In this document: positions 3,001 to 57,026 of the stretch, piece by piece | Position numbering within the stretch: the stretch's first letter is position 1 | Layout: every line of letters begins with the position of its first letter | NCBI RefSeq assembly: GCF_018100925.1 | Contig: NZ_JAGJEH010000001.1 | Span: 1-64,000 of the forward strand | Reading direction: 5' to 3' | From: Pseudoalteromonas luteoviolacea | Lineage (GTDB): Bacteria > Pseudomonadota > Gammaproteobacteria > Enterobacterales > Alteromonadaceae | Length of the DNA stretch: 64,000 nt | Position numbers and translations under genes: made by a program | Notes under the pieces: generated by a model | Databases searched by the model: none | What the model saw: the letters and a program-made list of their open reading frames with translations, nothing else | What the model was told of the DNA's origin: nothing

Positions 3001-6000
3001 CGCACCGGAAATATCGGGTACGCCGAGTGAGCAGGTAAACGAAGACAGCACATATAATTTTGTGCCAACCGCAGACGATAAAGATGGTGATGCTCTGTCG
3101 TTCACGATTGAAAATAGGCCAAACTGGCTTAGTTTTAATACCGCAACAGGGGCGTTAACAGGCATTCCAGAGAATAGCCATGTTGGAGTGTATAACAATA
3201 TTGTGATCAGCGTATCTGATGGGGAGCTTTCGACTTCACTAACTGCGTTTTCAATTACAGTAAATAATACCAACGATGCGCCGACTATCGGCGGTGTTCC
3301 ATTAACATCTGTGGACGAAGACAGTGCGTATAGCTTTACGCCTGTAGCGGCCGATGTTGATGGCGATACGTTGAGTTTCAGTGTTCAAAATGCGCCTGCT
3401 TGGGCTAGCTTTAACCCTTCAACAGGCGCACTTACAGGTACACCACAAGATCATGATGTCGGTAATTATACAAACATTACGGTGTCAGTGAGTGATGGCC
3501 AAGCGTCAGCGACATTGGCGGCCTTTGATATTGCGGTCAATAATACCAATGACTCACCTGTCGGTCTTAACCGTAGTTTCAACGTCAATGAAGGTGGATC
3601 ATTAGGTGTTGATGCTAGCAATGGCTTACTCAGCAGTAACTTTGTATTTGACGACGACCTTGATAGCGCCGATTTTCTATCAATTGTTGATATCAGTCAG
3701 CCATCATTCGGCACACTTACTATCAATGCTGATGGTAGTTTCACATATCAGCACGATGATAGCGAAACACAAAACGATAACTTCACTTACCGAATTCAAG
3801 ACAGCTTTGGGACATTGTCAAATGTTGTCACCGCAAGTATTTCAATTGCGCCAGTTTCTGAAGCACCTATCGTGCAAGACGACAGTGCGCAAACGAATGA
3901 AGACACGGCAGTTACCATCAACTTGCTGGACAATGACTCGGATCCTGAAGGGGATATCGTGGCCTCTTCGGCAATCGTAGTTGATCAGCCAACAATTGGT
4001 GCTGTTTCAATTGAAAATGGTGTAGCGACTTACACGCCCAACTTAGATGTAAATGGCTCTGACCTATTTACCTATATTGTATCTGATCAAACGTCAAATA
4101 ACTCGGAGAAAGCGACGGTATCGATCGTCATTTCCCCCGTAAATGATAGGCCTCAGGTACAAGCGATCAATGCAAATATTGAAGAAGATGCACAGCAAAC
4201 AAGTATCAATGTAAGAGCATTTGCAACAGATGTTGAAGATGGCATTCCCACCGGCGCGATAGCACTGGTAGCACAGCCCGTCAAAGGAAGTGTAGTAGTT
4301 AACAACGCAGCAGGAGCCATAAATTATACGCCGTTTGAAAATGAAGAAGGGGCTGACAGCTTTACTTACACCATAGCTGATAGCAATGGCACAGTATCTG
4401 AATTGGGCAGTGTTTCTATCAATATTGGTCAAGTGAACGATGCGCCAATTGCGACTGATGACAGTATTAATACACTAGAAGATACACAAGTCACTCTAAG
4501 CGTATTGAGTAATGATAATGATGTCGAAGATGCGGGTTTCAATGGCGCGAATATCACATTGCAAAATGACGGAACGTTTGATTTTGCAATCGTATCAATA
4601 TTGGCTGATGGCCGCTTGCAAATCGACCCTGTACAAGATCAAAATGGTCAGTTTAATTTCACATATACTTTAACTGACAGTGAAGGGTTAAGCTCTTTAC
4701 CAGCCACTGTCACACTCACAATAGACGCGGTCAACGATGCTCCAGTAGCCACTGACGATACTGCATCGCTTGATGAAGAGGGGGTTTTTGCCGTCAATGT
4801 CTTAGGTAATGACCTAGATGTAGATGGTAACAATGAACTTGATGTATCAACTGTGACCGTAGTCACGCCGCCGACAAAAGGGCAAACGACCATCGATAGC
4901 TTAGGCCGTATCGTCTACAGTGCCAGCACAAATGAAGTGGGCAATGATAGCTTCACTTACACTGTCAGGGACAAAGCTGGGGCGTTGTCTAATATTGCGA
5001 CTGTTGTGATGACGATAGACAATGTCAATGACGCACCTCAGGCGCAAGATGACCGCTATTCTGAAGAAACCTTTGATGAGGCTACTGGAACTTACCGCTT
5101 GGCTGTTTTGAGTAACGACAGTGATGTTGATATTGGTGATTCACTTACCCTGTTGAGTGCACAGGCTTCAGTGGGCAATGTGCAGGTCCAAGGAAGTGAG
5201 CTTATTTATACACCAGAAGCTTCTTTCAATGGTGTCGTTATTATCGAGTATGTTGTTAAAGATGAAGTGGGGGAGATAAGTCGCGCGATAGCTGAGCTTA
5301 CGGTAAATAGAAATGATGCACAGGGCACGCCACCCTCAATCACCGTACCGGCTGATGTGAATGTAGACGCAACCGCATTGTTTACCAAAGTGAACCTGGG
5401 GAACGCCACTGCTACCGACAGCAATGGCAACGTGATTGGTGTGTCACTCGTCGACAATAACGTGTTGTTCCCTCCTGGCCGGCACCTTGCCACTTGGAGA
5501 GCTGAGGACAGCAATGGCTTGAGTACATTTGCAACTCAGAATGTATTCGTCAACCCGTTAATTTCTTTGGCTAAAGATGTTCTGCTTTCAGAAGGCCAGA
5601 GCTTTACTTTAGGCGTTTATTTAAATGGAGAGGCTGCTCAATACCCTGTGGAAGTTCCTTATACAATTTCTGGATCTGCAACGAGCGCAGACCATACATT
5701 ATCCGATGGTTCAATCACCATCAATTCGGGCATCGAAGGACATATCACATTCAATATTTTTGAAGACGGGCAAAGCGAAGGTAACGAATCCATTATTGTG
5801 ACGTTGGATGAAACGTTAAATAGAGGAGCCAAATTCACCACGCAAATTACCATTGTTGAAGATAATGTCGCACCTGATATCGAATTAAGTGCCTCTCAAA
5901 ATAATGAGCGACGTACCACTGTGACTGCCAATGAACAGTTAGTAACCATTTCCGCACAGGTTACAGATCCTAACTTAGGCGATACAGTTTCATTGCAGTG

Positions 6001-10638: not shown

Positions 10639-13600
10639 ATGTTTACTAAAAATGCGATAGCAGTTGCCCTTGCAGCTGTGAGCGCTATGTCTGCGCCTGC
10701 AATTGCCGCTCAGCTTAACCATCAAGGTACATTAACTAATTCAAATACTCAGGAAGCTGTGAACGGCACGGTTTCAATGACGTTTAAGTTGTACTCACAA
10801 GATCAGGTTGTTTGGGAGTCGACAGAAAATGTTGACGTAGTCGACGGTGCATACTCAATCAGACTTGGCCAAAACAATGCGATTGATGCAGCAGTATTTA
10901 AAAACAAAGACCTAGAACTTGGGATCACAGTCGGTGATGATTCAGAAATGTCACCGCGTTTGAGCATTGATACAGCGCCAAGTGCTTATTACGCAGATAT
11001 CGCCAGTAAAGTTGAAGGTGAAGTTGATGCTACATCGGTCTCAGTCGGTGGTAACGTGATTATTGACGAAAATGGTCAATGGAAAGGAGACACAACAGGG
11101 CTGCGCGGTGCGGATGGTATTGACGGCATTAATGGTAAAGACGGCGTTGATGGTAAAGATGGTGCTGATGGTAAAGATGGTGCTGATGGGCAACCTGGTG
11201 CGCAAGGTGAAAAAGGTGATACTGGTGCACCTGGCGAAAAAGGTGACACAGGCGCCCCAGGTGAAAAGGGTGAAAAAGGTGATACCGGGGCCCAAGGGGA
11301 AAAGGGTGATAAAGGCCTTCAGGTAAAAGGTGCGTGGAGTGACACTTCGGCATATGCAGTGGATGACGTCGTTTCTTTTGGTGGGAGTATCTATATTGCG
11401 GTAGCTGCGATAAGTGCGCCAGAAGATGAACAGACAAATCTAGACCCGGTATCAGCGCCAAATGTGTGGAGTTTATTAGTCGCTAAAGGTGAGCAAGGCG
11501 CTCAGGGCGAGCAAGGTGAGCAAGGTATTCAAGGTCTGCCTGGTGAACAGGGTGCGCCTGGCACTGCTGGTGAGAAAGGCGAAAAGGGCGAAAAAGGTGA
11601 GCAGGGCATCCAGGGTATTCAAGGTATTCAGGGGATCCAAGGTGAACAAGGTATCCAAGGTGTGCCCGGTGAAAAAGGCGAGCAAGGTATTCAAGGTGAA
11701 CAAGGCGTTCAAGGTATCCAAGGCGAAAAAGGTGACCGAGGCTTGCAAGTCAGAGGTGAGTGGAGTGGCAGTGCAGCATATGCTATCGACGATGTAGTTT
11801 CTTTTGAAGGCAGTGTATATATTTCTATTGTTGAGGTAGCTGCACCAGCTGAAGGAGGCATCAATTTAGCACCGATCGCCTCACCAGGAGTTTGGACTTT
11901 GCTTATCGCTAAAGGTGAGCAAGGACTTCAAGGTGAAAGAGGCCTGCAAGGTGAAAAAGGCGACGCTGGTTCCCAAGGTGAAAAAGGTCTGCAAGGTGAT
12001 AAAGGCGACAAGGGTGACAAAGGCGAAGCAGGTGCTCAAGGTATCCCTGGTGAGAAAGGTGACCAAGGCTTACAAGGCTTAAAAGGTGACAAAGGTGATA
12101 CCGGTCTTCAAGGTATTCAAGGTATTCAAGGTATCCAAGGTCTTCGCGGTGAGAAAGGTGAACAAGGCGAGCAGGGTATTCAGGGTACTCAGGGTATTCA
12201 AGGCGATAAAGGTGATAAGGGTGACAAAGGTGATAAGGGTGATCGTGGTCTTGTCATCAAAGGCAATTGGAGTGCAACAGAGGCTTATAACGTAGATGAT
12301 ATTGTTGTACACGCGAACAATGCCTATGTCGCCAGAATCGCAGTTTCTGCGGTGGTTGAAGGAAATGAACCTAATTTACCACCTTCTAACACCAATAATA
12401 GTTGGTTGTTATTATTTAATGGTGTGGGTTCAGGTCTGGCAGGTAAAGATGGCCTAGACGGAGCTAAGGGTGAACAGGGTATTCAAGGCCTTCCTGGTGA
12501 ACCTGGTGCTGCTGGTGAAAAAGGTGACAAAGGTGAGCAAGGTATTCAAGGTATTCAAGGTCTTCCTGGTGCGCAAGGTATCCAAGGTGAAAAAGGTGAC
12601 CAAGGTCTACAAGGCCTGAAGGGTGACAAAGGAGATCCTGGTGCACAAGGTATTCAGGGTATTCAAGGAGAAAAAGGTGACCAAGGTATTCAGGGTATTC
12701 AAGGTGAAAAAGGGGACAAAGGGGACAAAGGCGATAAAGGTGATCGCGGCTTAAGTATCAAAGGAAGCTGGAGTGCGACAGAAGGCTATCAAGTTGACGA
12801 TGTTGTTGTTCATGAAAATAACGCTTATGTTGCTCGACTAGTCATCGCGGCTGTAGTTGAGGGTGACGAGCCAAACCTTCCACCATCAAATACTAACAAC
12901 AGTTGGCTGCTATTGTTTAATGGCGTTGGCTCGGGTTTAGCCGGTAAAGATGGTCTAGATGGTGAAAAGGGTGCACCAGGTGAAAAAGGTGAACCAGGAA
13001 CACCGGGAGCTCCAGGTGCACCGGGCGAAAAAGGTGAAAAGGGCGAACCTGGTGAAAAAGGCCAAGATGGAGCTAACGGCCTAAATGGTAAAGATGGTGC
13101 CAATGGTAAAGATGGCGAAAAAGGTGAAAAGGGCGAACCTGGTGAAAAAGGCCAAAAGGGTGATAAAGGCCTACAAGTCGTAGGTGCTTGGTCTTCAACT
13201 GCCGCTTATTCAGTTGATGACGTTGTTACCTTTGAAGGTAGTGCTTACATTGCAAAAGTTGCTATCCCAGCTGGTGAGCAAGCAAACTTATCACCGAAAG
13301 ACGGATCAGCACAATGGGTGTTATTTGCATCTAAAGGTGATACTGGTATTCAGTTTATTGCTGGCGGTTATAATTTAGTTACAGAGTTTGTTGCAGGCGA
13401 TGTGATCACATATATGGGAAGTGCATATATTGCAACGCAAAACACAGTAGCTGTACCTCCGACAGACCCTCAGGGTAATCTGCAGCAGCCGTGGCAGTTA
13501 CTTGCGAAAGGCGCAAGTTATGATGAGTCTCAGTTTGCACTAAAAGCTGATTTACCAGATATGACCGTGTATGTGACAAAAGCTGAATTCACTTCTGGCT

Positions 13601-15036
13601 TAGAATCAAAAGCAGACAGCATTACGGTAACAGGCTTACTTGAAACTAAAGTGGACAAAGCGACCTTTGATACGGCATTGGCAGGCAAAGCCAATCAAAC
13701 AGCAGTAGATACAGCGCTTGGTCTGAAAGCCAACAAAGCGGACATGGATACGGCATTGGCAGGCAAAGCCAATCAAACAGCAGTAGATACAGCGCTTGGT
13801 CTGAAAGCCAACAAATCGGACATGGATACGGCATTAGCAGGCAAAGCCAATCAAACAGCAGTAGATACAGCGCTTGGTCTGAAAGCCAACAAAGCGGACA
13901 TGGATACGGCATTGGCAGGTAAAGCCAATCAAACAGCAGTAGATACGGCGCTTGGTCTGAAAGCCAACAAAGCGGACATGGATACGGCATTAGCAGGCAA
14001 AGCCAATCAAACAGCAGTAGATACAGCACTTGGTCTGAAAGCCAATAAAGTGGACGTAAATACAGCATTAGCAGGAAAAGCCAATCAAACTGCTGTAAAT
14101 AATGCACTTGCGTTGAAAGCTAATAAGGCAGATATGGATTCAGCTTTGGCAGGTAAAGCCAATCAAACAGCTGTAAATAATGCACTTGCGTTGAAAGCAA
14201 ATAAGGCGGATGTGGATTCGGCTTTGGCGGGTAAAGCAAATCAAACAACGGTAGATACAGCGCTTGGCCTGAAAGCTAACAAGGCGGATATGGATACCGC
14301 ATTGGCAGGAAAAGCTAACCAAACTGATGTTGATAATGCCGTTTTACATGTCATGAAGTACAACCCAGCGAAAATCACATGGACAGAATCGCATTCATAT
14401 GAAGCGGGTGAGTTAACAAGGTTCCCATTTACTGGTCACATGTATATTGCATTGAAAGATGTACCTAATGATCAGGGGATCAGACCAAATTCACATACAG
14501 ATTATTGGACTGTATTTTTAGAAGGGACCGCTCCGGCTGATTTGAAGTTCATATTTGCTACTAGTCAGACATACACCGCCGATTTGGGAGGTACTGTGGG
14601 TGCAGATGCTAAGTGTCAAGCGGCCGCTAATGCGAGTAATTTGCTACCGAAAGGGAATTATCATGCGATAATACTTGGAAACTATTCAAGTAGTGGATAC
14701 TTTTTCAACAGTGGGGTTACTTATTACCGCCCTGATCTTAAAGTAGCCGCAGCGAATTTGACTTCGTTTTCACAAATGACTAGCCTGAACGTTCCAATTA
14801 ACCTTGATGAAAATGGTAATCAAGTTAGTGGTTATGCGTGGACAAACATGGTCTCGTCAGGCGCGAGACATAACTGGCAAGCATGTGGCGGGTTTTCTTC
14901 AAGATATGGAATGTGGGATATGTATGTTCGAGATGGCTCTATGATTGGTAATGTGGATAGCACAGACTCAACGTGGAGATCCCATTCGAATCAAACTTGT
15001 GACCAACAGGCGAGATTGTACTGCGTTCAAAATTAA
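10639..15036 (+). CDS. Secreted bacterial collagen with binding modules, trimeric-type coiled coil and DUF1554 head
   Basis: 1465 residues. A signal peptide ending PAIAA is followed by an N-terminal beta domain (about 25-130) of the kind found in many secreted 'LNHQG...' proteins. Five Gly-X-Y blocks (about residues 154-228, 283-367, 425-536, 598-703, 766-844) are rich in GEKGD, GDKGD and GIQGIQ triplets; Lys-Gly-Asp/Glu pairs can stabilise a triple helix without hydroxyproline. Between and after them are seven modules of about 55 residues with the pattern W-S-x-x-x-x-Y-x-V-D-D-V-V-x-x-x-x-x-x-Y-x-A, resembling CBM5/12-type folds. Residues about 1011-1233 are a 13-residue-period helical repeat (see the repeat entry). 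The last 165 residues (IFATSQTYTADLGG...ADAKC...RLYCVQN) look like DUF1554, a C-type-lectin-like domain. AAAGGGA precedes the ATG. Likely a trimeric surface stalk with a binding head. Confidence 0.85.
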   Translation: MFTKNAIAVALAAVSAMSAPAIAAQLNHQGTLTNSNTQEAVNGTVSMTFKLYSQDQVVWESTENVDVVDGAYSIRLGQNNAIDAAVFKNKDLELGITVGDDSEMSPRLSIDTAPSAYYADIASKVEGEVDATSVSVGGNVIIDENGQWKGDTTGLRGADGIDGINGKDGVDGKDGADGKDGADGQPGAQGEKGDTGAPGEKGDTGAPGEKGEKGDTGAQGEKGDKGLQVKGAWSDTSAYAVDDVVSFGGSIYIAVAAISAPEDEQTNLDPVSAPNVWSLLVAKGEQGAQGEQGEQGIQGLPGEQGAPGTAGEKGEKGEKGEQGIQGIQGIQGIQGEQGIQGVPGEKGEQGIQGEQGVQGIQGEKGDRGLQVRGEWSGSAAYAIDDVVSFEGSVYISIVEVAAPAEGGINLAPIASPGVWTLLIAKGEQGLQGERGLQGEKGDAGSQGEKGLQGDKGDKGDKGEAGAQGIPGEKGDQGLQGLKGDKGDTGLQGIQGIQGIQGLRGEKGEQGEQGIQGTQGIQGDKGDKGDKGDKGDRGLVIKGNWSATEAYNVDDIVVHANNAYVARIAVSAVVEGNEPNLPPSNTNNSWLLLFNGVGSGLAGKDGLDGAKGEQGIQGLPGEPGAAGEKGDKGEQGIQGIQGLPGAQGIQGEKGDQGLQGLKGDKGDPGAQGIQGIQGEKGDQGIQGIQGEKGDKGDKGDKGDRGLSIKGSWSATEGYQVDDVVVHENNAYVARLVIAAVVEGDEPNLPPSNTNNSWLLLFNGVGSGLAGKDGLDGEKGAPGEKGEPGTPGAPGAPGEKGEKGEPGEKGQDGANGLNGKDGANGKDGEKGEKGEPGEKGQKGDKGLQVVGAWSSTAAYSVDDVVTFEGSAYIAKVAIPAGEQANLSPKDGSAQWVLFASKGDTGIQFIAGGYNLVTEFVAGDVITYMGSAYIATQNTVAVPPTDPQGNLQQPWQLLAKGASYDESQFALKADLPDMTVYVTKAEFTSGLESKADSITVTGLLETKVDKATFDTALAGKANQTAVDTALGLKANKADMDTALAGKANQTAVDTALGLKANKSDMDTALAGKANQTAVDTALGLKANKADMDTALAGKANQTAVDTALGLKANKADMDTALAGKANQTAVDTALGLKANKVDVNTALAGKANQTAVNNALALKANKADMDSALAGKANQTAVNNALALKANKADVDSALAGKANQTTVDTALGLKANKADMDTALAGKANQTDVDNAVLHVMKYNPAKITWTESHSYEAGELTRFPFTGHMYIALKDVPNDQGIRPNSHTDYWTVFLEGTAPADLKFIFATSQTYTADLGGTVGADAKCQAAANASNLLPKGNYHAIILGNYSSSGYFFNSGVTYYRPDLKVAAANLTSFSQMTSLNVPINLDENGNQVSGYAWTNMVSSGARHNWQACGGFSSRYGMWDMYVRDGSMIGNVDSTDSTWRSHSNQTCDQQARLYCVQN
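13669..14334 (+). repeat. 78-bp tandem repeats (8 units plus a half) coding a coiled coil
   Basis: Units start at 13669, 13747, 13825, 13903, 13981, 14059, 14137, 14215 and 14293. Each codes 26 residues made of two 13-residue halves, TALAGKANQTAVD and TALGLKANKADMD. The first five units are nearly identical in DNA; later ones are more diverged. All preserve the reading frame. The pattern (Ala/Leu spacing, Asn, Lys) is like the trimeric coiled coils of phage fibres and trimeric autotransporters. Confidence 0.95.
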
Positions 15037-38285: not shown

Positions 38286-39068
38286 TTAATTGTTGATGTC
38301 GTCGACTTTTTTAACCGCTTCTAGATAACGACTTTCAATGAATTTATTTTCCTTAGTCAGGTGTTTAATTTTTTGTTTGGCTTGTTGTAGTTCAGCTTCA
38401 ATGGCCTTGGCGTCAACCCCGTCGCTTTGCTCTGGTAAATCGACAGAAAGTTGGTCAATAAGCTGATTCTGTTCGGCAATTTGGCGTTCATACTGTTGCA
38501 CTAACGCTTGGATCTCTAGTTCATTTGGCGATTCTCCACTGACTTGAGCCGATTTCATATCCGTTTTCAATTGAGCGATTTCTTTATGTAAGTTGCTGTT
38601 CTCTTCCTTCAAGCTACCCACAGACTGGAATTGATCTTCCAATTTTGTTTTGGCGTATTTTAGTTTTTTACCACTGATGGTTAAGTCACCTTTAAGGCGC
38701 TTGATCAGTTTGTGAGAGCGTGAGAGTTTTTTATTGAGTTCATTGATAGAAGCTTGCTCTTCTTTGGTTATATGATCGGCGGTAGAGGCGCGAATTTGTG
38801 CAAGCTGTTGCTCTAGATTTGCTTGTACGTGTAAAAGCTCAGAGATGGTTTGTTCATGTTGTTGATTGAACTGCGTGGCGCGCTCCACAGAATCTTTGCA
38901 CAGTGCGACCACCTCTTCAGATCCGGCGTTATTTGAGCTAGCGTTCATAAATACCGCTGCGAATTGTCTAAACTCTCTTAAAATCAACAACAAAATATAA
39001 AACCAAGCCGCTAAAATTAGCAGACCAAAATTTAAGGCTATATATTGGTAAACTTCTATCGGCAGCAT
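38286..39068 (-). CDS. Membrane-anchored coiled-coil protein
   Basis: 260 residues. One N-terminal transmembrane helix (FGLLILAAWFYILLLIL), then a long cytoplasmic alpha-helical coiled coil (about residues 60-255) dominated by Gln, Glu, Lys and Leu heptads (HEQTISELLHVQANLEQQL; LNKKLSRSHKLIKRLKG; LEIQALVQQYERQIAEQNQ). I recognise no family. Divergent from the response-regulator gene, with 100 bases between starts, so the two may share regulation and could act together as a localisation scaffold and signal receiver, but that is inference. Confidence 0.75.
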   Translation of the reverse strand: MLPIEVYQYIALNFGLLILAAWFYILLLILREFRQFAAVFMNASSNNAGSEEVVALCKDSVERATQFNQQHEQTISELLHVQANLEQQLAQIRASTADHITKEEQASINELNKKLSRSHKLIKRLKGDLTISGKKLKYAKTKLEDQFQSVGSLKEENSNLHKEIAQLKTDMKSAQVSGESPNELEIQALVQQYERQIAEQNQLIDQLSVDLPEQSDGVDAKAIEAELQQAKQKIKHLTKENKFIESRYLEAVKKVDDINN

Positions 39069-42956: not shown

Positions 42957-43976
42957 TTACCCAATAACTTTTTTGAACTTCAATAGCCAAACGCCAAACA
43001 ATATCTCAAAAATGACCGCAAAAGTGATGCCTGTGCCAGCGAAGATATATTTTTCTTTGAATGGCAGCACTTGGTTGGTGATTAAATAGTCTCCGCTAAC
43101 AAAAGTGATGGCTGCGAAAGCAATAAGTAGACAAATGATAATAGGGTAATCAATATACGGATTGATATTGAATTTTACATAATTTCCACATTTACCACAT
43201 GTAATCATTGTGGGTAAACCAGCCTTAAATACATCGATGAAACCAATGTTACTGCCACATTTTTTGCAAGTGTTCGTTGAATGCTCATCTGAGCGAGTTG
43301 TTCTGGGCGCTGCTGGCAAATCTATATTCTTTAAAAAATGTGCTCTCAAATTACCATAGTTTGATTGGCACTCTCCAGATATTGGCTCGATTATTTCTGC
43401 TGCTTCAATAAGATATAAGCCATTGTCGATACAATAATTCAGCGCTCTCAATAAAGAGTCTAAACCGTCTTCATCAATTAGCTCTGCAATATTGCTCTGA
43501 TTTTCCAGCAGCCACCCTTTAAATGCGCCGACATTTTGTAGTACCCCACTTGCACTGTAATTACCTGACATAAGCATCGATGTATCGGCATCGAATTTCG
43601 CTAGCGGAGAGTCTTCGAGAGAAGAAAAGCTTTGGAAAAGTGTGTGTATAGAAGGTATTTCCTCGGCCAAGAAGCAAATCGCTGAATTTCGAGCATACCA
43701 ATATGGATGCAGAAAACCTGCGACACTGGCAATAGCAAATGAGAAATAAGCCGCAAAGTTTTCAGCCGTTATTGGTTCACCGGAGGGAGTCGATTCATCC
43801 ATATACCAAGGAATAATGAACTCATTAAAGAGTTCAAGAAACTGCTCTTGAACTTTGCTATCTGAACTCACTTCTGTCGCTCTAGATTGCAGCAACCCAG
43901 GGTGTTCAAGAATATCAAAAACATACCTCTGTATTTCTTTTTTCGAAATGCAATGAAAAGTTACATCGTAGGACAC
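42957..43976 (-). CDS. Unknown protein with zinc ribbon and two C-terminal membrane helices
   Basis: About 339 residues. A mostly helical N-terminal region of about 210 residues (FDILEHPGLLQSRATEV; FLELFNEFIIPWYM; YFSFAIASVAGFLHPYWYARN) is followed by a zinc ribbon, CKKC-x23-CGKC, then two transmembrane helices (IIICLLIAFAAITFV; GITFAVIFEILFGVWLL) and a basic tail. No family recognised. GTG at 43976 preferred (TTGGAG eight bases upstream); the frame also allows a TTG seven codons earlier. Monocistronic. Confidence 0.65.
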   Translation of the reverse strand: MSYDVTFHCISKKEIQRYVFDILEHPGLLQSRATEVSSDSKVQEQFLELFNEFIIPWYMDESTPSGEPITAENFAAYFSFAIASVAGFLHPYWYARNSAICFLAEEIPSIHTLFQSFSSLEDSPLAKFDADTSMLMSGNYSASGVLQNVGAFKGWLLENQSNIAELIDEDGLDSLLRALNYCIDNGLYLIEAAEIIEPISGECQSNYGNLRAHFLKNIDLPAAPRTTRSDEHSTNTCKKCGSNIGFIDVFKAGLPTMITCGKCGNYVKFNINPYIDYPIIICLLIAFAAITFVSGDYLITNQVLPFKEKYIFAGTGITFAVIFEILFGVWLLKFKKVIG

Positions 43977-44262
43977 TAGTATTGCTCCAAACTCCAAGTG
44001 ACATTATTTACGCAGTGGTATGACGCAAATTTTTATACGCAACATGATAGCAAGAAAGTACTAAAAGTCCTTATTTACGCAATATTTAATTTGCGCTATG
44101 AGTGCCATTTTTTAATTGGGGAAGAAAACTTATTATCTGGAGTTTTAGGCAGGTGTATTGGCATGAGTTGGAACTGAGGTCGTTTTATACTTAGCTTAAA
44201 TTATTCATGGCGCGATTTTACTGCGCCACTTGCATCTATTTAGCAAACGGCGCGGCGTAGCT

Positions 44263-48196: not shown

Positions 48197-48240
48197 TTTG
48201 CAATGTAGCAAGCACGCTACATTGCAAATCTTCTTTTCTC
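48197..48240 (+). terminator. Terminator of the ABC operon
   Basis: Perfect 13-bp stem TTTGCAATGTAGC/GCTACATTGCAAA with a 6-base loop, followed by TCTTCTTTTCTC. Confidence 0.85.
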
Positions 48241-48495: not shown

Positions 48496-51400
48496 ATGAA
48501 AGCTAAAAATGTGTTAAAGCAACTCTATGCATCAGGCATTGAGTTGATTCTTGAAAACGAGCGACTTGTCACTAAGTCAAACACTCCTCCCACCGACAAA
48601 CAAGCTACATTGATAAATCAATATGAACAGCGGCTAATCGATTACATTAAGTTGCAAGATACTCATTGGCGAACGCGGTTGTCTGGGTATGAACCTATGA
48701 TTCTGCATAGCATGTGCTTGCCTTGTGAGCAGCGAGGAGTGTTTACTCAATACTGGCAATATAGTGAGTTAAAACAGCCGAAAGTCAGCACAAAACAAGC
48801 ACAGTTCCTATTACAAAGCCGGGTTCTTTACGCGTTAAATCAGGCACTTTCAACATATTCAGGCCAAGCTGATAACCTAGTTAAAGTGTTTTTACCAGAG
48901 GACTCAGCCGATGGCTTTCAAGTATGTCCTGTCCGAAGTACCGCACAGGGAAAGTCATTAACGCTTGAGCAATTTACCAAATTATATCGTCAAGATATTG
49001 AAGTTGGATACTTAGATACAAGCGCTTTGAATTCCTACAATCTAGAATCTGAATGTGAGGTGGTATGGCAGGGTTTGCAGGAAGCGGAAAATCACTCACC
49101 GAGCCTCACAGAAAAACAAAAAATAGGTATTGATATTCGGCTTTTAGATCGAAAAGTTGTTTTCACGTGGCGCTGGAATGGCCAGCTAATAAGTGAACGG
49201 TCCGTTAAAGTTATCTCAGAAATCTTTGCGTCTTATCTAGTGGGAACGCCTGCCAGCATCCCGGAATTTTCAGCAATAAAAAACAGCTATCAAGAAGATA
49301 AAAGTGCTTTGCAGTTATTTGCTCAGGTTTCCTCGCTTTATTCCGATAAAGTGGCTGTGCGCTGCCAAGAGCGGCAGCTAACATATCGGGAGCTAAAGCA
49401 GCAGGCAGAAAGTATTGCGGCTTCATTGCAATCAGCTGGAATGCTCGCTGGGGACCGTATTGTAGTGATCCTGCCCCGCAATATAGACCTTTTACTGGCA
49501 ATAGTGGGGATATTATTTACGGGGGCTGTGTATATCCCTGTTTCTCCAAAAGAGTCTGAAGAAAGAGTAAACACTGTTGTTGAACAAAGTGGCGCCAAGG
49601 CAGTGATCTGTCTTGATTTCAAATCGACATTGGTTTGTCGGCAGTTTACCTTAGAGCAATTGCGTTCGCGTTCGGATAAAGCTTATCAAGGTGCAGAGGT
49701 AGCTGCTGACAGCCCTTTTTATATCAACTTTTCTTCGGGCTCGACGGGAAAGCCTAAAGGGATCGTGTGTTCACATCAAGGGATCACGAGGTTAGTCATT
49801 AATCCAAACTTTACTGTGCTCGATGAGAACACCAATATGCTGTGTATTGCCAACCAAAGTTTTGATGCGTTTGCGTTTGAAATATGGGGGGCTCTGCTAA
49901 ACGGTGGTTGTCTTTATATGCTGGAAGAGGCGTGTGTAACACCTGAAAATCTAGGCACATTGTTTAGCACGCAGGTTAATACCTGCTTTTTAACGGCCGC
50001 ATTATTTCATACCCTAGTCGACATTGACCCTTGTCTGTTTTCTGGATTAAAGCAATTACTGGTCGGGGGGGACGTAGTATTACCCTCAAAGGTAAAACTG
50101 GTGTACCAAAACAATTCAGATATACAGATTGTAAATGCCTATGGCCCTACAGAAAATACCGTATTTACAAGCACCTTTTTAATTCCAAAAACTTGGTCGA
50201 GCAACCAGCCATTGCCCATTGGACTACCGATTAATGGCACTGCGGTAGCCATCGTGTCTGACAAAGGGGCGTATTTACCACATGGTTGTGTAGGTGAGAT
50301 CGTTACAGCAGGTTCTGGACTGGCTTTAGGATACTTGAACAAATCACAAGAGTCGGGGCGGTTTGTCTCGATGGACTGTGGAGACAAGCCACTGCGGGTG
50401 TATAAAACTGGCGATTTGGGCTTTATTGATAGCCAAGGGGATATACGGTTTATTGGCCGACGAGATGCGCAAGTGAAAATTAACGGGTATCGAGTAGAGT
50501 TGCAGGCGATAGACCAAACGCTAGAGGCACTTCCAGAAATAAAGCAAGCACATACACTTGCCATTGCGGCTGCAAATGGACATAAGCTGGTAAGTTTTAT
50601 TCAGCTTAATGAGCCTCACCATCAAAACGACGCAAATTGTGAGAGTGTGCTGGTGCATTACCTTGAAGCAGAGCTACCTGCGCATATGGTACCGAGCAGT
50701 CTTTGTTTTATAACTCACATTCCACTGACCTTAAATGGTAAATTGGATAAACAGTCTCTCATTGAGCTGTTTACCCAACAAAGCCAATCACAATACGTGG
50801 CACCAACCACGCCTTTGCAAATTGAGCTGTGCAAGTTATTTGCGCAAGTATTACATGTCAAACGCCTCGGTATCGCGGACGATCTGATTCAACTGGGGGG
50901 AAACTCGTTGATGTTTCTTCGCATTTTGGCAATTTGCAGAGAAACGTTGCAACTGGAGATCACCCTAAATGAGCTATTACTCAACCCAAATATTGCAGCG
51001 ATCTCGCACTTGGCACGTCGTAAAAATACGCCTTCTATCACAAAAGCAAGTGAGCAACAGCTGTCATTTGCCGAGGAGCGTTTGCTTTTTATTCAAGGAA
51101 TAAAGGAAGCCGAATGTGCTTACAATGCGCCTTTTTTGTTTGAACTAAGCCCCGAGTTTGATTGTGATAAATTCCTGTCTGCGTTTGAGCAAGTCGCTGC
51201 GCGACACACTATTTTAAAAACCCAATATCGTTGGAATGACGCGCGGCAAGTATACCCGAAAATATCAGAATCTAAGTATGCGTTGCACCATGAAAAAGTG
51301 GATTCAGAACAAGCGCTGCAAATGCGTCTCAAGTATTTTGCCAATGAACCTTTTGACTTGAGCGAGGAATTACCTGTTAAGTTCGTGCTATTGGAAAAAA

Positions 51401-54400
51401 CTGACAGCCGACAATTACTGCTCAATATTCACCATGTTGTGATTGACGGCTGGTCGTTGAACATTCTGTTCAATGAGTTGACATATTTTTATGCGGGTAA
51501 AGGGGAGGTATTACCACTTAAGATCAGCTATAGAGATTATGCCAGTTGGCAACGTGAAGAGCTTAAAGGAACGACAAAAGCGGATTTAACCGCTTTTTGG
51601 CAAAGGTATTTGGCTGGAAATGATACCTTGTTATTGCCCTATGATGCACCAAGAGGGAAAAGCTTTGATTACAAAGGTAAGAGTCAATACATCAAGTTAG
51701 ATAAGTCACTTTCTCAAGCCCTTCGGCAAAGTGCAAAAGCCCATAGCACAACGCTGTATCATGTGATGTTAAGCACCTTTTTTGCTCTGAGCCACAAACT
51801 TTCTCAGCAACATGATTTGATCCTTGGTACGCCATTTGAAAATAGATATGAACCTGAAACACAGTCATTAATTGGCTTCTTTGTTAACTCCTTACCAATC
51901 CGAGTTGTATTGCAAAATGACGATGTCTCATTACGAGAGTTGCTTCAACTGACAATTAACAGTGTTTCTGAAGTGCGTGAACACCAGGCGTTGCCACTCA
52001 ATGATATTGTACAGGCGACAGGCACTGAGTTTGACGCATCTCGCGCGCCCTTATTTCAAGTGTTATTTAGTGTACAAGCATTTTTAGCTCAAAAAGACCT
52101 GCCCTCTGGAATGACGCTTGAACATGTGCGTGCTTATACGGCCGCTAAGTACGACATGACCATTCTTATCGATGACAGCAAAACAGAGATCGAAATAGAT
52201 TGGAACTACGCAAGTGCCTTGTTTAAGTGTGAATCGGTGACGCGTTTTGCACAAATGTATAAGCGTGTATTGACGCAGTTTACAGAGCAGCCAAGCACAA
52301 AGCTCAGTGAACTCATTGTCATAGATGAAAAAGAACAGAGGTTGCTTTTAGATGTATGGGGCAGGCCACAGAACTCAAAGCCTCTGCGCCATTTATCGTT
52401 GCCAGCATTATTTGAAGAACAAGCCAATATTCATCCAGAACAAACGGCACTGAGGTATAAAGGTGAGTCACTGAGTTATCATCAGTTAAATAGCCGGGCA
52501 AACCAGCTTGCACACGGCTTACTGGCTTGTTTTAACCGTAGCTATTTACCACAGCAGGCACATATTGCGGTATTTAAAACTCGCGGTATCGACATGGTTG
52601 TCAGTGCGCTTGCGGTCCTTAAATTAGGTGCGGCTGTGGTTATGGTGTCACCAGACTACCCACAACATAGGATTGACACTATGTTGCAGGACTGTCAGCC
52701 TCTTTGTGTAATCACCGACGAACATCATGTAGATAAGATCCGCGATTTGGGTTGCGGTTGCGTTATTTTCCAGCAAGTTATGAGTAAGCAAAACTTAGCT
52801 CATAATCTAGCGTCAGTTGTAAACCTTGATACCATGGCTTATGTGATTTACACGTCTGGCACAACGGGGACTCCGAAGGGAGTGAAAACATCTCATCGTG
52901 GTGTGGTGTCTCTGATCCAAAATAATGGATATGTTGAATTCTCCTCTCAAGATCGACTAGTTCAGCTAGCCAATCCGAATTTTGATATGGCTTTATTTGA
53001 GACTTGGGGCGCGCTATGTCATGGTGCAACTTTGGTTATTCCCGAGCAACAGCAACCCAGTTTCGAGGATATCCGCGCATTATTGCGGCGTGAATCAATA
53101 ACGATATTGTGGCTAACTACGTCGCTATTTGATGGACTACATAGCTATGATCCCAGTTGTTTTGCGAACCTAAAGTATCTGATTTTTGGCGGGGAAGCAG
53201 CTAATTGTGATACTGTCGCTAAATTGCAGGCATCTGAGAGTTGCCCTGAATACTTAATAAATGGATATGGTCCATCTGAAAGTACCATTGTGACGACGCA
53301 CTGTTGTCATGGGTTTACGGGGACTAATGTACCTATTGGAAAACCTGCTAATTCGCGCAACGTCTATGTGCTGGATAGGCATAAAAGACCAGTACCAATA
53401 GGGGTGATCGGAGAGCTCTATGTGGCAGGGGAAGGTGTTTCTGACGGGTATTTAAATCGCCTTGAACTTACAAATGAACGTTTTTTGCCTGATCCGTTTA
53501 GTGACAGTGAAGATGGCAAAATGTATAGAACTGGGGATTTGGTACGTTGGCGATTAGATGGAAACCTTGAATACTTAGGACGCAATGACAATCAAGTTAA
53601 AATCAACGGTTATAGAATAGAGCTTGGCGAAATAGAAAACGTTTTATTGCAAAATTCGGACATCAACAGTGTTGCGGTTGTTGATGTAGAGCACCACGGT
53701 CACACATATTTGGTCGCTTATATCTGTAGCACTAATCAACAGCTCTCACTCAATGATGTTCGCAGCAATGCGGAGCAGCAGCTTCCGAGGTTTATGCACC
53801 CCAGTGAATATATTCAAATTGATAGTCTTCCCTATACATTAAATGGAAAGTTGGACAAAAACCGCTTACCCAAGGTCCATTTTGAATCGCAACGCAATTA
53901 CGTAGCACCAAGAGATCAATTTGAATTACAGCTATGCGCTTTATTTAGGCAGCTATTGGGAGCGCCTAAAGTAGGCATAGATGATGACTTTTTTGAACTG
54001 GGTGGACACTCTATGTTGGCGATGCAATTGGCACACAAGATAGAACACTTAACCGGACAAGCCTTTTCATTACGGTCATTATATAGCCACAGAACCGTGC
54101 GCCAGCTGTCAGAGTTCAAACCCAAAACGAAGCGTTTTGTTGAGCCTTCGCAATTTGCATTGCCTGTACATTTATCTCCGCTCAAGCGCAATATAGAGTG
54201 TGTACAAACGATATTCTTAACGGGTGCCACTGGATTTGTTGGACGTTATTTATTGGCACAGTTACTTACTGCTCCCGATGCAATAATTTACTGTCTAGTG
54301 AGAGCATCAGATAGCATACATGGCAAAGCGAGAATAGAGCAGAGCTTAAAGCAGGCTCATTTGTGGCGCGACGAATTTACAGGTCGGATCAATGCGGTTG

Positions 54401-55293
54401 AGGGTGATTTATCACAAGCAAAGCTGGGTATGAGCGAGCAAAGTTATACTCGTGTTGCCGAACAAGTTGATTTAATTATCCATGCGGCGACGTACATGGA
54501 TCACCTAGCACAATTTGAGCAAATGAAACCAGCTAACGTTGATAGTACGATAGAACTGATCACCTTGCAGCAGCACCGAAAGGCTAAGCGCTTACTGCAC
54601 ATTTCAACGACCGCGGTACTTAAACAGCGAGAAGTTGCAGATGAACTAACACCTTTGGAGCTACAAAGTCACACAGCGTGTGAGGGATATGTATCCACTA
54701 AATGGGCATCAGAGTTGCTGATTAAGCAAGCCCAGCAACGTGGTTTTGACATCAGTGTGATTCGATTGGGGTTAATATCTGGATGTGTTAATACGGGCTT
54801 AAGCGACCACGAACAGTGGCTAACCATGTTGATGAAATTAACCTCACACCTTGGGCTGTGTTTTGATGATAAGCGTTTTCAAACGAGTATTATACCTGTG
54901 AACTACGTTGCACAAGCCATTGGTACCTTGATATACCAATCAAAGCTATTACCGGTGTATCATCTATCAAACTCTCGAGAGCTCTATTTTGTCGATTTGG
55001 TACGCGCGCGCAACAAAGTACTTGAAGCACCTATCACACTGACCAGTTATAAGGACTTTATCGCGGCATTAGTTGCACTCAAAGAAACAGGAAAAGCAAT
55101 CACCGGAGAGTACTTGTTTACTGATGATATGCGGCAAGTATCAGCTGAGCATCATAGAGAGGAGTCGAGTGTTTTCGCACCAATTGATGCTACTAAAACT
55201 TGGCAGTCGTTGGAAAAGCTCAATTTGCCAATGCCAGCGTTGACGGACGTGATGATAGCGCAATATTTCGATGCCATTGAAAGCATAGAATAA
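48496..55293 (+). CDS. Stand-alone dimodular nonribosomal peptide synthetase with terminal reductase
   Basis: 2265 residues. Order: TubC-type docking helix pair (1-52), a condensation-like region without any HHxxxDG (about 55-250), A1 (about 275-770; SSGSTGKPKG at 412, NAYGPTEN, YKTGDLG, LNGKLDK), carrier T1 (GGNS, Ser804), C domain (HHVVIDG at 979), A2 (about 1325-1780; YTSGTTGTPKG at 1452, NGYGPSES, YRTGDL, LNGKLDK), T2 (GGHS, Ser1839) and a thioester reductase (TGATGFVG at 1909; YVSTK, Tyr2065/Lys2069). Hand-read specificity codes: A1 D-A-F-F-L-G-A-V-F-K (branched aliphatic, such as Val or Ile, likely); A2 D-M-F-W-I-G-G-I-V-K (unclear, hydrophobic). Predicted product: a dipeptide released as aldehyde, which can cyclise to a pyrazinone as in AusA of Staphylococcus. 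No phosphopantetheinyl transferase or tailoring gene is adjacent; followed by its own terminator. Confidence 0.92.
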   Translation: MKAKNVLKQLYASGIELILENERLVTKSNTPPTDKQATLINQYEQRLIDYIKLQDTHWRTRLSGYEPMILHSMCLPCEQRGVFTQYWQYSELKQPKVSTKQAQFLLQSRVLYALNQALSTYSGQADNLVKVFLPEDSADGFQVCPVRSTAQGKSLTLEQFTKLYRQDIEVGYLDTSALNSYNLESECEVVWQGLQEAENHSPSLTEKQKIGIDIRLLDRKVVFTWRWNGQLISERSVKVISEIFASYLVGTPASIPEFSAIKNSYQEDKSALQLFAQVSSLYSDKVAVRCQERQLTYRELKQQAESIAASLQSAGMLAGDRIVVILPRNIDLLLAIVGILFTGAVYIPVSPKESEERVNTVVEQSGAKAVICLDFKSTLVCRQFTLEQLRSRSDKAYQGAEVAADSPFYINFSSGSTGKPKGIVCSHQGITRLVINPNFTVLDENTNMLCIANQSFDAFAFEIWGALLNGGCLYMLEEACVTPENLGTLFSTQVNTCFLTAALFHTLVDIDPCLFSGLKQLLVGGDVVLPSKVKLVYQNNSDIQIVNAYGPTENTVFTSTFLIPKTWSSNQPLPIGLPINGTAVAIVSDKGAYLPHGCVGEIVTAGSGLALGYLNKSQESGRFVSMDCGDKPLRVYKTGDLGFIDSQGDIRFIGRRDAQVKINGYRVELQAIDQTLEALPEIKQAHTLAIAAANGHKLVSFIQLNEPHHQNDANCESVLVHYLEAELPAHMVPSSLCFITHIPLTLNGKLDKQSLIELFTQQSQSQYVAPTTPLQIELCKLFAQVLHVKRLGIADDLIQLGGNSLMFLRILAICRETLQLEITLNELLLNPNIAAISHLARRKNTPSITKASEQQLSFAEERLLFIQGIKEAECAYNAPFLFELSPEFDCDKFLSAFEQVAARHTILKTQYRWNDARQVYPKISESKYALHHEKVDSEQALQMRLKYFANEPFDLSEELPVKFVLLEKTDSRQLLLNIHHVVIDGWSLNILFNELTYFYAGKGEVLPLKISYRDYASWQREELKGTTKADLTAFWQRYLAGNDTLLLPYDAPRGKSFDYKGKSQYIKLDKSLSQALRQSAKAHSTTLYHVMLSTFFALSHKLSQQHDLILGTPFENRYEPETQSLIGFFVNSLPIRVVLQNDDVSLRELLQLTINSVSEVREHQALPLNDIVQATGTEFDASRAPLFQVLFSVQAFLAQKDLPSGMTLEHVRAYTAAKYDMTILIDDSKTEIEIDWNYASALFKCESVTRFAQMYKRVLTQFTEQPSTKLSELIVIDEKEQRLLLDVWGRPQNSKPLRHLSLPALFEEQANIHPEQTALRYKGESLSYHQLNSRANQLAHGLLACFNRSYLPQQAHIAVFKTRGIDMVVSALAVLKLGAAVVMVSPDYPQHRIDTMLQDCQPLCVITDEHHVDKIRDLGCGCVIFQQVMSKQNLAHNLASVVNLDTMAYVIYTSGTTGTPKGVKTSHRGVVSLIQNNGYVEFSSQDRLVQLANPNFDMALFETWGALCHGATLVIPEQQQPSFEDIRALLRRESITILWLTTSLFDGLHSYDPSCFANLKYLIFGGEAANCDTVAKLQASESCPEYLINGYGPSESTIVTTHCCHGFTGTNVPIGKPANSRNVYVLDRHKRPVPIGVIGELYVAGEGVSDGYLNRLELTNERFLPDPFSDSEDGKMYRTGDLVRWRLDGNLEYLGRNDNQVKINGYRIELGEIENVLLQNSDINSVAVVDVEHHGHTYLVAYICSTNQQLSLNDVRSNAEQQLPRFMHPSEYIQIDSLPYTLNGKLDKNRLPKVHFESQRNYVAPRDQFELQLCALFRQLLGAPKVGIDDDFFELGGHSMLAMQLAHKIEHLTGQAFSLRSLYSHRTVRQLSEFKPKTKRFVEPSQFALPVHLSPLKRNIECVQTIFLTGATGFVGRYLLAQLLTAPDAIIYCLVRASDSIHGKARIEQSLKQAHLWRDEFTGRINAVEGDLSQAKLGMSEQSYTRVAEQVDLIIHAATYMDHLAQFEQMKPANVDSTIELITLQQHRKAKRLLHISTTAVLKQREVADELTPLELQSHTACEGYVSTKWASELLIKQAQQRGFDISVIRLGLISGCVNTGLSDHEQWLTMLMKLTSHLGLCFDDKRFQTSIIPVNYVAQAIGTLIYQSKLLPVYHLSNSRELYFVDLVRARNKVLEAPITLTSYKDFIAALVALKETGKAITGEYLFTDDMRQVSAEHHREESSVFAPIDATKTWQSLEKLNLPMPALTDVMIAQYFDAIESIE

Positions 55294-55334: not shown

Positions 55335-57026
55335 TTATTTGGTAGCAATTGGTGCTGGTACTTTTTTAAACTGATAGCCAAGTCCGTTTAACTTTCCAGG
55401 CTGGCTAAAGTCAAACACAGTACCAATGCCTCTTCCATATCCTTGTACCTGTAGTAAGTTGTCACCCACTACCTTTACTGTACGAGTAAAGCCATGTTTA
55501 ACCGAGACAAGCACTAAGGCTTGCAACTCTGGCGCGTACTCTAAGATAAGATCGCCGAGTATCGGGTTGTCGGACTGGATTTGATAGTACCCAAGTAACT
55601 GCTCAAGCTCTGGGGTCAACTGCGTAGTTACGAGCTTGCTAAATACGTGTGCGTAATCCTTTCCATCATAAAGAAAGCGAACTCCTTCAATGGCCTCGGT
55701 CGGCTTTATTTTTATATCGTAGTCTATTCCCTGAACTTGATAAGTTTGCGCTGCTACTTTTTTGAGCGGCTTATAGCCGAACCCTTCAGAGAAAACACTA
55801 AACTCGCCACTTGGATTTTGCTCGATAAATACACTGCTTGTGCCCACATAAACACCAGCTTCCAGCGTTTTACGGGACTCATCTAATTGCGGCGTTGATG
55901 TGTGCTCAAACGGGCCTGGTGCCTGTTGAGCCACCATGCTCGTTACTGCTTTGGCAATGTCTTCAACCGCACTTGCACCTACTCTGTTATTAGTTGTGAC
56001 AAACACGCCAAAGTTTAATTCAGGTACTATGTACATTGAACTTTCATAGCCCTGATAACTACCATCATGATTGATAGCGATATGGCCGTTAAATGGCTCA
56101 ATGAAGAAGCCCAGCCCCATTTGGTGGTCGCCATCTAGCTTCACGTGTTCATTTTGGACGTCGCGAACAGTTTTAATCAAAGATGCGGGCAAAATTGCAT
56201 GGCTGTTGTAATTCCAGCTATCTAATATTGCCTGCATGTAGCGCGCCATATCATTACCAGTAGAGATCATGCCACCTGCTGGGGTTGTTAGTGCCGCATA
56301 TTTTGGCTCAATTTGTGTGCCGCTATAACTTTCAGCCATCTTTGTCGGTAACGGCCCGTTTGGCAGATGGCTTAAAGTAGAGTCCATACCGAGTGGAGCA
56401 AAAAACTCTGATTGCAAGTATGCTTGCCAACTTTGCCCACTAACTCTTGAGACCAACAAACCTGCAAGGGCAAACGCATTATTGTTGTATGCTGAGATTG
56501 TGCCTCGATCCCAAACCAAGTATTCGTCGCTAAGCAACGCGGCCAGTAAATCTAGGTCTTGATCTGGCGTAGTCGTTGGTTCATCACCCCGATACCACCC
56601 CGAAGGGATCCCACTTTGATGGGTAAGCAAGTCACGTACAGTTATTTTACCATTGTTGTTTGGCAATACCTTAGGCCTGAAATCCGGTAGGTATTTGTAA
56701 ACACTGTCATCAAGAGATAACTTACCTTCATTAACGAGCTTTAAAACAGCAAGAGTAACAAAGGTTTTACTGATCGAAGCGATCCTAAACTGGGTATCTG
56801 ACGTCACAGGTTGTTGTGTCTGGGTATTGGCGAACCCAAACCCTTCCAACAAAATTGGCGTGTTGTCTTTAACTACAGCAATTGAAATTCCAGTGATTTT
56901 TTCTTCTGATAGCCTATTTTCAATTTGCTGGGTTATCTGGTTCAATTCAGGCTGAGTCAGTGCTAGAGCAGAGTGAATGACCGTAAAACCTGCGAGAAAG
57001 GTTGAGAGCAATGCTATTTTTTTCAT
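55335..57026 (-). CDS. Secreted serine hydrolase, beta-lactamase/PBP4* family
   Basis: 563 residues. Signal peptide ending SALA-L, so periplasmic or exported. Motifs of the class C beta-lactamase/DD-peptidase fold: SISK (Ser84-Lys87), YNN (Tyr180-Asn182) and H-D-G (in NHDGSYQGYESS). After the catalytic domain (to about residue 370) comes a C-terminal beta-rich domain of about 190 residues, as in many Pseudoalteromonas and Shewanella serine hydrolases. Activity could be D-peptidase, esterase or peptide hydrolase; a true beta-lactamase is unlikely. AAGGA before ATG. Convergent with the NRPS gene. Confidence 0.88.
   Translation of the reverse strand: MKKIALLSTFLAGFTVIHSALALTQPELNQITQQIENRLSEEKITGISIAVVKDNTPILLEGFGFANTQTQQPVTSDTQFRIASISKTFVTLAVLKLVNEGKLSLDDSVYKYLPDFRPKVLPNNNGKITVRDLLTHQSGIPSGWYRGDEPTTTPDQDLDLLAALLSDEYLVWDRGTISAYNNNAFALAGLLVSRVSGQSWQAYLQSEFFAPLGMDSTLSHLPNGPLPTKMAESYSGTQIEPKYAALTTPAGGMISTGNDMARYMQAILDSWNYNSHAILPASLIKTVRDVQNEHVKLDGDHQMGLGFFIEPFNGHIAINHDGSYQGYESSMYIVPELNFGVFVTTNNRVGASAVEDIAKAVTSMVAQQAPGPFEHTSTPQLDESRKTLEAGVYVGTSSVFIEQNPSGEFSVFSEGFGYKPLKKVAAQTYQVQGIDYDIKIKPTEAIEGVRFLYDGKDYAHVFSKLVTTQLTPELEQLLGYYQIQSDNPILGDLILEYAPELQALVLVSVKHGFTRTVKVVGDNLLQVQGYGRGIGTVFDFSQPGKLNGLGYQFKKVPAPIATK

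Follow-up and report, generated by a model that had tools for sequence, protein, structure and literature searches.

A probable single-gene, reductase-ended dipeptide synthetase with a vestigial leader in the Pseudoalteromonas luteoviolacea group

What can an NRPS encoded by a single gene make, and can it start the synthesis by itself? The question is raised by a 64,000-nucleotide stretch of Pseudoalteromonas luteoviolacea DNA (the window), in which translation of the forward strand revealed one uninterrupted ORF of 2265 aa at 48496-55293. A preliminary description had read it as a stand-alone, AusA-type A-T-C-A-T-reductase and a candidate maker of a dipeptide aldehyde or pyrazinone. The features assigned to the gene in the present study are as follows (G066 denotes a Pseudoalteromonas relative described below).

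48496..55293, forward strand: NRPS gene, A-T-C-A-T-R after a vestigial leader (ORF, Pfam, motifs)
48496..48657, forward strand: TubC-type docking-like domain, residues 1-54 (weak Pfam TubC_N match, predicted H-E-E-H-H order, G066 relative)
48658..49293, forward strand: C-terminal lobe of a condensation domain, residues 55-266, with the HHxxxDG-bearing N-lobe missing (model fold match, G066 alignment)
49294..50799, forward strand: A1, code DAFFLGAVFK (Pfam, motifs, code mapping)
50803..51030, forward strand: T1, LGGNS with Ser804 (Pfam, motif)
51031..52365, forward strand: C domain, HHVVIDG at residues 979-985 (Pfam, motif)
52378..53880, forward strand: A2, code DMFWIGGIVK (Pfam, motifs, code mapping)
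53893..54135, forward strand: T2, LGGHS with Ser1839 (Pfam, motif)
54193..55290, forward strand: terminal thioester reductase, GATGFVG at 1910, Tyr2065 and Lys2069 (Pfam, TIGR01746, motifs)

Pfam matches comprised AMP-binding (twice), Condensation (852-1285), PP-binding (twice), and NAD_binding_4 (1908-2142), and the core motifs were intact, namely LGGNS at 800, HHVVIDG at 979, LGGHS at 1835, GATGFVG at 1910, and Tyr2065 and Lys2069. The A-T-C-A-T-R order proposed earlier, reductase residues included, was thus confirmed from A1 onward, whereas a docking-like domain and half a condensation domain in residues 1-266 had been overlooked. The T, C, and Tyr/Lys motifs were kept in all five orthologues (G000, the genome of the window, and G077, G004, G076, and G026), and the GxTG reductase pattern was matched in four of them, G004 carrying GASGFVG.

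By its model and alignments, the leader resembles a docking domain of the TubC type joined to just the C-terminal half of a condensation domain. Residues 1-54 gave a TubC_N (PF18563) match of 14.9 bits (E 0.03), below the cut-off of 26, and no TubC_N match was listed in the Pfam search for the leader of the G026 orthologue. Their predicted order in the AlphaFold leader model, which is of middling quality (mean pLDDT 65.5, pTM 0.57, 5 sequences), was helix-strand-strand-helix-helix. Among the best 50 matches listed, residues 69-256 of the model matched one lobe of C/E/Cy domains with Z 9.8-11.6, and the chain residues matched (e.g., 215-449 in 6ta8, 217-459 in 2xhg) correspond to the C-terminal lobe. 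Acyltransferase E2 cores matched the model nearly as well (Z up to 10.8 vs 11.6 for NRPS C/E domains), and the predicted fold by itself is that of one CAT-like lobe. The C-lobe reading is based on the residue range matched in the C/E/Cy chains and on the alignment with the G066 protein.

The G066 protein (L048) is a TubC_N-C-A-T subunit that harbored a docking domain (TubC_N, 42.8 bits), a full Condensation domain (75-464), A, and T, and its A domain was the best non-orthologous match to A1 (46%, 442 bits) in a convenience set searched with tblastn. Its C-lobe start (YWRNRLQGYEAMQLHS) aligns with HWRTRLSGYEPMILHS of the window NRPS, which directly follows the docking-like domain. Compared with the G066 protein, the leader lacks the HHxxxDG-bearing N-lobe, a stretch of about 200 residues, the deletion border being approximate because the MAFFT alignment split the docking part of the window NRPS. 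The G066 protein differs in its complete C domain, in the A-T-C-A-T subunit (two A, two T, one C) that precedes it, and in its code (DALWLGGTFK), and it runs off the contig end. The leaders of all five orthologues were alike in having no catalytic C-domain half before A1. Because the HHxxxDG-bearing half of the preceding C domain is gone, A1 should be a loading module, and the term "stand-alone" is apt in that a catalytic C domain is absent before A1 and the reductase ends the protein.

An upstream partner could still dock onto the retained N-terminal domain, a point against a self-starting enzyme. On that reading, the encoded protein would depend on another NRPS acting before it in trans, reached via the TubC-like domain, and the product would be larger than a dipeptide. 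We regard this as improbable: the docking-like N-terminus, the placement of the G066 relative after an A-T-C-A-T subunit, and the 47 C-domain matches in the own genome fit it, but the catalytic C half that would accept an upstream chain is absent, and no other NRPS gene lies adjacent in any of the five genomes examined.

A full-length search of 60 relatives recovered two orthologues (G004 and G026, 55% identity), and a leader search of 108 genus genomes gave matches in seven, representing the full-length protein in the five genomes above, a stop-containing remnant in G074, and a different protein in G066. A genome-contig scan, using two R-domain patterns only, gave just four loci, all in named public genomes (P. 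luteoviolacea NCIMB 1944, IPB1, S2607, Pseudoalteromonas sp. SMS1), which are those of G077, G004, G076, and G026. In 369 genomes drawn from the class, R matches with E of 1e-20 or lower were obtained for 20, counting the own genome, and the best one outside the own genome (194.5 bits) lay in a 5563-aa frame. The upstream ABC permease was found at an identity of at least 72% in 12 genomes, the next match being at 43%, and these 12 were taken as the clade set. Within it, the NRPS occupies one locus and was intact in five genomes, a remnant in one, and absent with the flanks kept in six. The G074 remnant (L047:4946-5305) consists of about 120 leader codons with one stop between intact flanks and represents a gene caught in decay.

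In a tree built from four flanking proteins, genomes with the NRPS lay to either side of the midpoint root, at least two changes being required if the G074 remnant is counted as present, and the branching of the five orthologues in the R tree agreed with it, the place of G026 being weakly supported (83/10). The simplest account is an ancient presence followed by losses, with transfer into the same site as an alternative. Identity between the two main lineages was 52-61% for A1, C, A2, and R, 38-54% for T1, and 68-75% for T2. In the catalytic and carrier domains, dN/dS from our own Nei-Gojobori script was 0.12-0.16 for G000-G077 and 0.04-0.13 for G004-G076, the latter ratios being rough because dS exceeded 1 in most domains of that pair; the corresponding leader values were 0.32 and 0.21 for the C-lobe remnant and 0.14 and 0.43 for the docking-like part. 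Judged from these comparisons, the conservation exceeds chance, and the P. luteoviolacea group has long carried the gene and kept it under purifying selection. A decaying gene without a product might be suspected from the G074 remnant and the absence in six clade genomes, yet this is very unlikely given the open frame, motifs, and low dN/dS of the intact copies.

The NRPS gene sits between a YbbAP-like ABC pair (upstream) and g57487/MCP, and its downstream neighbour is a convergent beta-lactamase-family gene (55335-57026). The gap behind the ABC permease gene contains the following feature.

48197..48228, no strand assigned: terminator-like hairpin of 13-14 pairs, lying after the ABC permease gene and before the NRPS gene (consensus scan only)

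A promoter scan listed no match in this gap, and the NRPS gene is probably its own transcript. The beta-lactamase-family gene was present in G000, G077, G022, G017, G079, G078, and G129 (as two tblastn pieces in G077 and G129) and gave no tblastn match in G004, G026, G076, G074, and G073; it varies independently of the NRPS. The ABC pair was rejected as a dedicated exporter, since the same pair is found at the locus in the seven clade genomes without an intact NRPS. Two PPTase matches were detected in the own genome, both on other contigs. Elsewhere in the window, a 1465-aa protein (10639-15036) combines a chitin-binding-type CBM5/12 match with ten stretches of collagen-like repeats, a 2666-aa adhesin-like giant (26-8026) consists mostly of repeated Ig/cadherin-like domains, and ORFs of 346 and 260 aa (42957-43997 and 38286-39068) had no Pfam match at E 0.001.

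For the substrates, code positions set by us were mapped on AusA A1, and the resulting codes predict substrates rather than demonstrate them. A1 showed DAFFLGAVFK in G000 and G077 and DAFFIGGVFK in G004, G076, and G026, while A2 showed DMFWIGGIVK in four of the five orthologues and DMFWVGAIVK in G026; under the same mapping, AusA has DAFWLGGTFK (A1) and DATSIGAVIK (A2). In the accessible parts of the respective papers, DAFFLGVTFK is associated with Ile/Val in cyanopeptolin synthesis (PMC2533009) and DAFWLGGTFK is listed for Val (PMC9113097); the papers searched for code strings gave no exact match to DMFWIGGIVK. Both codes look aliphatic, A1 pointing to Val/Ile/Leu, where Val may still apply, and two branched-chain residues are predicted, with low confidence for A2.

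Release would fall to the terminal R domain, which scored 234-240 bits (234 in the window protein) against the thioester reductase model TIGR01746 (cut-off 213) and has both the Rossmann motif and Tyr-x3-Lys, indicating membership. A second NRPS-type reductase over the same cut-off was detected in the own genome (G000:C12:467317-468153, L029) inside a 6751-aa frame, and comparable frames, likewise with an R match, are found in G022 (C3, 6723 aa) and G017 (C77, 6722 aa).

The best-scoring named relatives of the window R domain were the MxcG/MxaA terminal modules (myxochelin, myxalamid). In the three orthologues tested, the R domain scored 172-186 bits against the MxcG model vs 80-101 against the AusA model, and the window R domain gave 146 bits to MxaA vs 52 to the AusA R domain. 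MxcG and MxaA belong to longer pathways, unlike a two-module self-starting enzyme, and their R domains give four-electron release as an alcohol. On this score pattern, R may instead yield a dipeptidyl amino alcohol, with no aldehyde or pyrazinone. The dipeptidyl alcohol is a real alternative product, albeit a somewhat unlikely one in our estimation, because similarity does not fix the electron number and the window R domain lies nearest, in the tree described next, not to MxaA but to enzymes of Rhizobium and Eleftheria that are uncharacterised. A reductase phylogeny, proposed earlier as a check, was run with 40 rows (its bootstrap had not settled, and the own C12 R domain was entered once, the duplicate L122 being left out). 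It grouped the window R domain with those of Rhizobium leguminosarum (L095) and Eleftheria terrae (L096) with support of 99/100, and these were the nearest R domains found (35% and 33% identity). The Rhizobium enzyme is A-T-R only, unlike the A-T-C-A-T-R window NRPS, and the Eleftheria protein exceeds 3400 aa vs 2265 aa. The R domain of the Staphylococcus epidermidis AusA homologue, whose branch is very long, was placed in a different starred clade (97/91), and forcing the two together cost 23.9 log units (AU p 0.087, with AusA long-branched). The pLDDT of the R-domain model was 54.5. The scores, the tree, and the AU test do not discriminate between two- and four-electron release; the aldehyde or pyrazinone first proposed is plausible, as is the alcohol. 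Pyrazinone formation is described, in the accessible text, for the R-ended dipeptide enzyme AusA (PMC12153313) and for engineered NRPSs (PMC7586950). The accessible literature on aureusimines/pyrazinones (also in Pseudoalteromonas), AusA, Pseudoalteromonas NRPSs, P. luteoviolacea clusters, four-electron reductases, and docking or truncated C domains named no product for this gene, which may be among the clusters in Table S2 of Maansson 2016 (PMC5069768), whose accessible text reports an antiSMASH run on 13 strains of the P. luteoviolacea group.

The likeness to AusA holds for the layout, as both enzymes have A-T-C-A-T-R in one protein and a C-like stretch without HHxxxDG before A1, and reductive dipeptide release is predicted for the window NRPS as well; the kinship implied by "AusA-type" is not supported. 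The AusA equivalog model NF047350 was the top NCBIfam match of the whole window protein, but its score (1173 bits) was less than half of the cut-off (2500), compared with 4292 bits for the S. epidermidis homologue (L094). In a genome search, other NRPSs of relatives reached 1035 and 990 bits, values that were scored piecewise and are thus not strictly comparable with 1173. The C-A-T-R part scored 750 bits against the AusA model vs 538 against MxcG, the best AusA stretch being an A domain. Among tblastn rows, AusA ranked 4/93 for A1, 4/84 for A2, 33/42 for C, and 32/34 for R, in a convenience set of loci that included orthologue pieces (such as L049 and L050) and garbled protein-alignment rows. 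By these ranks, the A domains resemble AusA about as closely as those of other NRPSs do, whereas the C and R domains are not, matching those of AusA poorly. Furthermore, a PPTase gene (AusB) adjoins AusA in S. epidermidis and none adjoins the window NRPS, and AusA uses Val then an aromatic residue (accessible text of PMC12153313), whereas both codes here differ from those of AusA and the A2 code looks aliphatic. The N-terminal remnant of AusA is also shaped differently from the window leader: in the S. epidermidis homologue, a C-like stretch covers residues 9-177 (E 3e-9), and no HHxxxDG was found within it. The AusA-type synthetase (L094:1477-8637) lies with its PPTase gene in a record labelled as a 386-kb S. 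epidermidis plasmid.

AusA membership was thus rejected: the score, the codes, the neighbouring genes, and the C and R similarities all speak against it, and only the AU test allows a joint R clade. A true AusA relative gained by horizontal transfer, for which the layout, the top NF047350 match, the C-A-T-R score, the A-domain ranks, and the AU test could be cited, is accordingly highly improbable in view of the sub-threshold score approached by other NRPSs, the low C and R ranks, and the differing codes and neighbouring genes. The window NRPS appears AusA-like in logic without being established as a member of the AusA family, and the same layout combined with differently shaped C-like starts and dissimilar reductases may reflect parallel origins.

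Overall, a single-gene, self-starting dimodular NRPS with reductive dipeptide release, whose leader is the remnant of an elongation subunit, is considered the likely reading. It is supported by the missing catalytic C half before A1 in all five orthologues and the lack of an adjacent NRPS gene, by the intact motifs, purifying selection, and terminal R over the TIGR01746 cut-off, and by the TubC_N-C-A-T relative in G066, the genomic PPTases, and codes near Ile/Val codes. We infer the substrates, their order, the release chemistry, and the role and history of the leader as follows. A PPTase encoded elsewhere in the genome would prime T1 and T2, A1 would load the first amino acid (Val/Ile/Leu by its code) and A2 a second, aliphatic one, and the only complete C domain would join them. 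The NAD(P)H-dependent R would then release the dipeptide as an aldehyde, which could cyclise to a dihydropyrazinone or pyrazinone, or alternatively reduce it a second time to the alcohol. Both parts of the leader, the docking-like domain and the half C domain, would be leftovers of a former elongation subunit that lost its upstream partner and turned self-starting. NRPS structures contain a C-A platform, which the retained C-lobe may preserve, and the half C domain perhaps persists as such a platform for A1. More tentatively, self-starting dipeptide-reductase NRPSs may arise repeatedly by decapitation. In such an event, an internal elongation subunit would be parted from the subunit before it, shed the catalytic half of its leading C domain, become a loading module, and end in a separately derived reductase. 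The Pseudoalteromonas enzyme, which kept the docking-like domain and C-lobe, and AusA, with its C-like start lacking HHxxxDG, could then be two independent cases of the same architecture, a possibility we hold just as cautiously.

The window NRPS is thus genuine and selected, and it is probably a self-sufficient synthetase that releases a dipeptide reductively, its product being an orphan. It would add a marine gammaproteobacterial, reductase-ended dipeptide synthetase to a class whose products, among them the aureusimines and gut dipeptide aldehydes, have been considered as signals or protease inhibitors. A direct product search is possible because some strains carry the gene at this locus and others lack it, and a naturally shortened assembly line, in which a C domain is cut to one lobe before the loading module, may be useful for NRPS engineering.
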